Shown here in pieces: positions 14,155 to 21,693 of a stretch of 38,044 bases of DNA. The first letter of the stretch is position 1. Each line of letters opens with the position of its first letter. Made by a program: the position numbers and the translations under genes. Source of the stretch: Candidatus Faecousia intestinavium (GTDB lineage Bacteria > Bacillota > Clostridia > Oscillospirales > Oscillospiraceae); the NCBI GenBank assembly GCA_018715835.1, contig DVKV01000003.1, positions 1 through 38,044 on the forward strand, in the 5' to 3' direction. The notes beneath the pieces were generated by a model that did no database searches, was not told where the DNA came from, and saw only the letters and a list, made by a program, of their open reading frames with translations.

Positions 14155-14553
14155 TTACCAGACGAAAGCCAGGACTTCGCCGCCGATGTGCAGCTCGCGA
14201 GCCTTCTTGTCGGTCATAACGCCCTTGGAAGTGGACACGATGGCGATACCCAGGCCCTTGAGAACCTTGGGCAGCTCGTCGGCGCCGGCATAGACACGCA
14301 GGCCGGGCTTGGACACACGGCGCAGGCCGGTGAGCACAGGCTGCTTCTTAGCCAGGTACTTCAGGGTGATGTGAATGGTACCCTGGTTGCCGTTGTCTAC
14401 CAGAGAGTAGGACTTGATGTAGCCCTCATCCAGCAGAATCTGAGCAATGGCCTTCTTCAGGTTGGAAGCGGGGACATCCACAGTGTCGTGCTTTGCAGTG
14501 CTGGCGTTGCGAACGCGGGTCAGCATATCTGCTACGGGATCGGTGATTTGCAT
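14155..14553 (-). CDS. rpsH: 30S ribosomal protein S8
   Basis: [29 protein letters not shown]...[33 protein letters not shown]. Confidence 0.98.
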
Positions 14554-14685
14554 GTTTTTATCCTCCTAATAGAAGTTACGGGCTAAACCCGTGAAAGATC
14601 CGGGGGTATCCGGGGAATGCGCTCTGCCGAAGCAGAGCCATCTTCCCGGGACTGACCGAATCTTAGTCACATTATTGTCTCGACC
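14554..14685 (-). ncRNA. candidate structured intercistronic RNA element rpsN|rpsH
   Basis: 132-nt non-coding gap; minus strand CCGGG-AA-GATG-GCTCTGC-TTCG-GCAGAGC-G-CATT-C-CCCGG (about 16 bp, C(UUCG)G tetraloop), flanking hairpins TGACT..GGTCA and ACGGG TTTAG CCCGT, then AGGAGG RBS. Confidence 0.6.
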
Positions 14686-14871
14686 TTACCAGCTGGCCTT
14701 ACGGACACCGGGGATCTGGCCCTTGTAGGCCAGCTCGCGGAAGCAGATACGGCACACGCCGTAATCACGCAGGTAAGCATGGGGTCTGCCGCAGATCTTG
14801 CAGCGGTTGTAGCGGCGGCTGGAGAACTTGGGCTCAGCCTGCTGCTTCAGGATCATAGACTTCTTTGCCAT
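14686..14871 (-). CDS. rpsZ: 30S ribosomal protein S14 type Z (zinc-binding)
   Basis: 61 aa, [44 protein letters not shown]. Confidence 0.97.
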
Positions 14872-21425: not shown

Positions 21426-21693
21426 GGTTTGTTTTCCTCCTTGAATTACGTACTCAGTTTGCGTAGTGTCTGGGTACGGTCGAGCTGTTTTGTCCGCGCC
21501 GCCGTGCGTATCATTCCACGTCATGAAAAATGGCCGACCGAGGCCGACCTCATTCTCTGCGCAGCGATATACGCTACACGCTTCGAAAGCAGTTCAGCCG
21601 CCCGATGACCGGACATACTCCGCGGAAGTTACCGCCTTTCGACGCAATCTCCCGCATCATCGCAGTGCACGCGCAGTTTTCCCCTACACGCGC
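21426..21693 (-). promoter_or_regulatory. long (about 268 nt) rpsJ 5' leader with several predicted hairpins
   Basis: Distance from inferred TSS to rpsJ ATG; minus strand GTGTAGCG TATAT CGCTGCGC, GGTCGGCCTCGGTCGGCC and CGTAC-C-CAG...CTG-A-GTACG next to the RBS. Confidence 0.55.

Follow-up and report, generated by a model that had tools for sequence, protein, structure and literature searches.

A candidate S8 operator in the rpsN-rpsH spacer of Oscillospiraceae that resembles the S8 site of 16S rRNA

The spacer between rpsN and rpsH, i.e., between the genes for ribosomal proteins S14 and S8, very probably serves in Candidatus Faecousia intestinavium, an uncultured gut bacterium, as an mRNA operator for S8 autorepression, one which, as judged from sequence comparisons, imitates the S8 site found in helix 21 of 16S rRNA. 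S8 is a primary 16S rRNA binder as well as a known regulator of the spc operon (PMC10931766). As reviewed there, in 2024, the regulation of spc outside of the gamma-proteobacteria is unknown, and its phylogenetic study has not advanced. The element described here was found in a window of 38,044 nucleotides, that is, the whole stretch of DNA that was analysed. The genus of the window is Candidatus Faecousia, family Oscillospiraceae, and the genomes compared are mostly MAGs.

Location and Architecture

The initial annotation of this DNA pointed to an unusually long rpsN-rpsH gap, and the gap indeed is exactly 132 nt versus 13-19 nt for nearby ribosomal-protein junctions. Folding of its transcribed strand yields -52.3 kcal/mol as compared with -38.4 +/- 3.8 for dinucleotide shuffles (z = -3.6), with none of 200 shuffles folding as well. 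The element is present as a single copy within the window's genome and the G-U pairs frequent on the minus strand show it to act in the sense of the genes. Read 5' to 3', it consists of helix P1, a GUC/GAUAC internal loop, helix P2a, a second internal loop (as seen in the window genus), the distal hairpin P2b, and then P3 followed by P4 (Table 1).

Table 1. Features of the rpsN-rpsH spacer and its flanking genes, in order of transcription
Feature	Position	Strand	Basis or remark
rpsN (ribosomal protein S14), gene 5' of spacer	14686..14871	-	Pfam PF00253
Entire rpsN-rpsH spacer containing element	14554..14685	-	132 nt
P1 5' strand (AAGAUUCGG)	14656..14664	-	Covarying helix, columns 6-13 of genus alignment
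S8 core 5' side, GUC (= 16S G597 U598 C599)	14650..14652	-	Invariant 27/27; matches E. coli 16S
P2a 5' strand	14643..14649	-	Genus alignment
Second internal loop 5' side, GAUG (NAUG across genus)	14639..14642	-	Genus conservation
P2b distal hairpin	14621..14638	-	Hypervariable, covarying; UUCG loop 14628-14631
Second internal loop 3' side, GCA (RCA across genus)	14618..14620	-	Genus conservation
P2a 3' strand	14611..14617	-	Genus alignment
S8 core 3' side, GAUAC (= 16S G639 A640 U641 A642 C643)	14606..14610	-	Invariant 27/27
P1 3' strand (CCGGAUCUU)	14595..14603	-	Covarying helix
P3 hairpin ACGGGUUUAGCCCGU	14578..14592	-	Sequence nearly fixed in genus
P4, anti-SD CUUC (14572-14575) opposite Shine-Dalgarno AGGAGG (14562-14567)	14562..14575	-	Folding
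rpsH (ribosomal protein S8), encodes presumed ligand; presumed first target gene	14155..14553	-	Pfam PF00410

What had been stressed in the initial annotation was a stem of about 16 bp capped by a UUCG loop. A C(UUCG)G hairpin does lie where it was placed, but the helix exceeds 16 bp, as AAGAUUCGG (14664-14656) pairs with CCGGAUCUU (14603-14595) across the GUC/GAUAC internal loop. The capped stem also is not the recognised part, its loop and stem being what vary most among relatives, and the UUCG loop as a functional motif was ruled out, the loop sequence being without conservation. The constant part, which had been missed, is instead the asymmetric internal loop, that is, GUC opposite GAUAC. 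An ACGGG...CCCGU hairpin lies before the rpsH ribosome-binding site just as described; a small hairpin noted before the main stem is not conserved in relatives.

Strict conservation of the second internal loop, GAANAUGG/RCAUUC, extends over the genus and two other genera, whereas a divergent clade of the family lacks the loop. It possibly is a second contact or instead a lineage-specific motif.

Covariation

As identified via the S8 protein, there are 30 same-genus loci, and all of those for which both flanks are available share one spacer layout, at lengths of 128-275 nt. The genus alignment displays both-side changes in 17 of 35 pairs, with 110 double-changed cells versus 33.4 +/- 4.3 in shuffles (0/500 reaching the observed value) and at most 43 in slid-alignment controls. 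A tree built from rpsH plus rpsN coding DNA places 48 compensatory double changes, spread over 15 pairs, as independent events, where random partners on that same tree gave a mean of 1.6 compensatory events (maximum 14 of 2000). The divergent clade covaries as well (115 versus 34.1 +/- 7.0), in P1, P2, P3, and the core pair 598-640, and P3 covaries across the family, as A-U, C-G, or G-C at columns 92-110. A check on the rpsN-rpsH gaps of relatives, as had been suggested for this spacer, thus finds strong covariation, with the element occupying the same gap genus- and family-wide rather than being strain-specific junk. What is seen, that is, is a covarying structure that consistently is found upstream of a ribosomal-protein gene, as is looked for with ribosomal leaders.

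Distribution

A covariance model, built from 27 sequences and tuned to the window genus, matches 70 of 251 family genomes, or 43 of 106 genera, counts which because of that tuning are lower bounds. Such matches nearly always are between S14 and S8. Among carriers are Oscillibacter sp. PC13, Flintibacter muris, Pseudoflavonifractor phocaeensis, and a Dysosmobacter, and the core was present in all three of three further family genomes taken regardless of the model (L278-L280). Scans of 129 distinct Oscillospiraceae gaps recovered the core motif together with both helices in 118 (loose version; 3.3 in shuffles), or the core by a strict version in 84 (2.45 expected). A class-level search with the model, which is weak for divergent members, matched only in Oscillospiraceae; matches in other families of the order were set aside as chance, none adjoining rpsN or rpsH. 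In those other families the rpsN-rpsH gap is mostly short (15-60 nt), a few having different structured spacers, and for gaps of at least 60 nt the core was seen in 1 of 30 (loose) or 0 of 30 (strict).

Four same-genus gaps (L016, L020, L022, L036) carry a distal hairpin with an insert of 70-135 nt that is itself a long hairpin. As the L022 insert resembles those of L016, L020, and L036, and occurs elsewhere in those genomes, this would seem to be a REP/MITE-like dispersed repeat that is tolerated in the distal loop. In a Flavonifractor-like clade (L164, L165, L173, L176, L178, L197, L075-L077, L082-L084) the gap reaches 240-680 nt and contains additional conserved blocks (e.g., AACGUGUACAG and CGCCUGCCCCAACCAGG) along with TATAAT-like sequences, which from sequence suggests that a promoter or some other element has been added upstream of the operator.

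In other families the junction holds different candidates, too. A different structured rpsN-rpsH spacer is seen in L206-L210, L214, and L215 (family f13, Butyricicoccaceae), in L211 and L217 (f15), and in L193 and L196, with the motifs AA(A)AGUGG and AACUUCUGAAAGGAG in common. This sister-family spacer is a candidate for a second, unrelated leader at the rpsN-rpsH junction. Conserved structured spacers of their own before rpsH also are found in L238, L241, L258, L266, and L275 (f20), in L244, L257, L267, and L268 (f16), and in L224 and L229 (f2). The f2 gaps contain GGUCC...UAUACC, which is S8-core-like with one extra nucleotide, though not in all members.

Likeness to Helix 21 of 16S rRNA

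The S8 site within helix 21 (E. coli 588-651) is built from A595-(A596-U644) and (G597-C643)-U641, with A642 exposed (PMC4176348). In E. coli this helix reads AAGUC/GAUACU, and in element-carrying genomes it reads AAGUC/GAAACU, the family sequences here being from Oscillospiraceae genera other than the window genus. Across the genus the mRNA element has one unvarying core, (N)GUC...GAUAC, which family-wide broadens to G[UC]C...G[AG][UA]AC; that is, the element displays the same asymmetric loop, with G597-U598-C599 across from G639-A640-(U/A)641-A642-C643, the two sides in the same 5' to 3' order and with helices flanking both sides. In the divergent clade, G639, A642, C643, C644, and U645 are invariant in 39 of 39 sequences, and 10 of those 39 have C-G in place of U-A at pair 598-640, a change on both sides. 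It is because this constant internal loop matches the helix 21 S8 site that S8 is favoured over other ribosomal proteins, which, from sequence, also lends support to the S8 operator that had been raised as an inference. The S8 protein for its part retains Y88, S107-T108-S109, and E126, which are RNA-contact residues as named in PMC4176348.

The likeness is not complete. The element is located in mRNA, before a Shine-Dalgarno sequence (SD), and has different flanking helices. Rather than A-U, its 596-644 often is G-C, A.C, or C.C. The window genus mostly has C at position 644 together with A or C at 596, hence a frequent mismatch; A596-U644 does occur in some elements (L041-043, L037, and L038), and the divergent clade has G596-C644. 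In the window's own element 594-645 is mismatched as well. Helix 21 of the family has A641 and U644 whereas the mRNA element usually has U641 and C644, and in the divergent clade the 5' side of the element's loop is longer by one A.

Proposed Mechanism

The element is positioned within the mRNA that encodes S8, directly upstream of rpsH and near to its ribosome-binding site. The distance from C643 to the SD has a median of 39 nt, with the middle half falling within 38-40 nt. By folding, the SD is predicted to be mostly paired, in P4, with its predicted unpaired probability 0.24 in the family versus 0.54 for the order's other families, values that are uncorrected for relatedness. This anti-SD pairing rests mainly on folding, the SD being unable to vary. 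Pairing of the conserved GAAG with the CUUC that precedes the SD was rejected, since GAAN varies (GAAC, GAAA) while CUUC is constant.

Operation presumably would be as follows. P1 and P2 frame the loop, the constant bases of which, in rRNA, form base triples and leave A642 exposed to S8. Upon saturation of rRNA sites, free S8 then would bind the GUC/GAUAC loop, which may stabilise a stacked P1-P3-P4 segment such that the rpsH SD would stay paired in P4. Entry of 30S subunits on rpsH would be blocked, with downstream genes, i.e., rplF onwards, following via translational coupling. Binding, stacking, repression, and downstream effect alike are what we infer.

Alternative Explanations

The ligand of a ribosomal leader often is not the product of the gene immediately downstream (Eckert and Weinberg, PMC7247131), and the element might be an operator for another protein of the operon, e.g., S14, L6, or L5, with its likeness to helix 21 a coincidence. 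We view this as improbable: what stays constant in the element is the S8 core itself, with strand order and pairing frame retained, A642 and C643 are invariant, 598-640 covaries as a pair, and S8 already is known both to bind 16S rRNA as a primary protein and to regulate spc. Very improbable is a role solely in mRNA processing or stability, such as an RNase III-like site or a decay barrier, which would set the S14:S8 stoichiometry with no protein regulator. A long helical hairpin between two cistrons would suit such an element, and S8-dependent retroregulation with mRNA processing has been described for E. coli spc (cited in PMC10931766). For processing, however, the GUC/GAUAC loop need not be invariant, nor the distance to the SD fixed or the SD paired, and conservation is strongest in the loop rather than in the helix.

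Somewhat less probable again is a transcriptional role, whether as attenuator, terminator-antiterminator, or internal promoter leader. That the spacer is not a standard terminator had been stated from the start, and the only terminator-like match, a weak one, is the ACGGG hairpin followed by AACTTCTATT, with no real U tract; nor, in window or relatives, does a U tract follow P3, and the 3' end always is the rpsH SD. Some long-gap family members do possess TATAAT-like sequences upstream of the element, but no sigma-70-like promoter was found in the window's rpsN-rpsH gap. Lastly, a mobile or repeat hairpin of the REP/MITE kind, located here by chance, might be suspected from the four same-genus copies with dispersed repeat inserts in the distal P2 loop. 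The element as such occurs just once in its genome, is confined family-wide to one site, vertically, and is conserved through compensatory change, with position and covariation thereby refuting this possibility, for which the probability is next to nil.

Comparison with Known Systems

A close known counterpart to the proposed S8 operator is that of E. coli spc, which involves the same protein, operon, and core bases (GAAAC with AAGUC) as well as translational repression, this latter presumed for the element. The E. coli operator is found at the rplE start, however, overlapping the coding region and with its sides swapped (GAAACU at +6..+11, AAGUC at +80..+84), whereas the Oscillospiraceae element lies wholly in the rpsN-rpsH spacer, a gap of 33 nt in E. 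coli, follows the helix 21 order, and has separate P3 and SD hairpins. Neither the rplE location nor the permuted strand order, that is, is seen with the element. It would work like the E. coli operator without being its homologue by position or topology. Because of the other junction and the rRNA strand order, the simpler view is that the element arose independently, as probably was the case.

Among Firmicutes, ribosomal leaders such as S10-Clostridia (RF03136) and the Clostridia S4 leader similarly are cis-acting structures in ribosomal-protein mRNAs, with several imitating rRNA. None of these leaders as found in Rfam or in Eckert and Weinberg 2020 matches the spacer, and of the 20 new motifs of the latter none has S8 as ligand (PMC7247131). 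Searching Rfam 15 at gathering and relaxed thresholds yielded no relevant family for the spacer, a TMV pseudoknot match to P3 being chance. A prior description was found neither in Rfam 15 nor in the literature searched, the scope of which did not extend to Fu et al. 2013 or Meyer 2018. Besides the element, the ribosomal-protein cluster yielded a single regulatory RNA, an S10-Clostridia leader (36.8 bits, slightly over the gathering score) that precedes rpsJ, at 21595-21668 on the minus strand.

We lean modestly toward a broader picture in which Oscillospiraceae arrived at an S8 operator independently of the gamma-proteobacterial one, using a different operon junction and keeping the strand order of rRNA, with sister families having other structured RNAs between rpsN and rpsH, such that within the order this junction would be a recurrent point of spc control.

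Significance

The element represents a concrete, testable candidate for an S8 operator, and it occurs in a major gut family with culturable members in Oscillibacter, Flintibacter, and Pseudoflavonifractor. The ribosomal-protein cluster would then have two leaders, S10-Clostridia at its start and the spacer element inside. Natural variation, i.e., U598-A640 with U641 versus C598-G640 with A641, provides in addition a set of ready-made mutants with which to study how S8 recognises RNA. With the element, the same rRNA site would have been imitated a second time, apparently independently.
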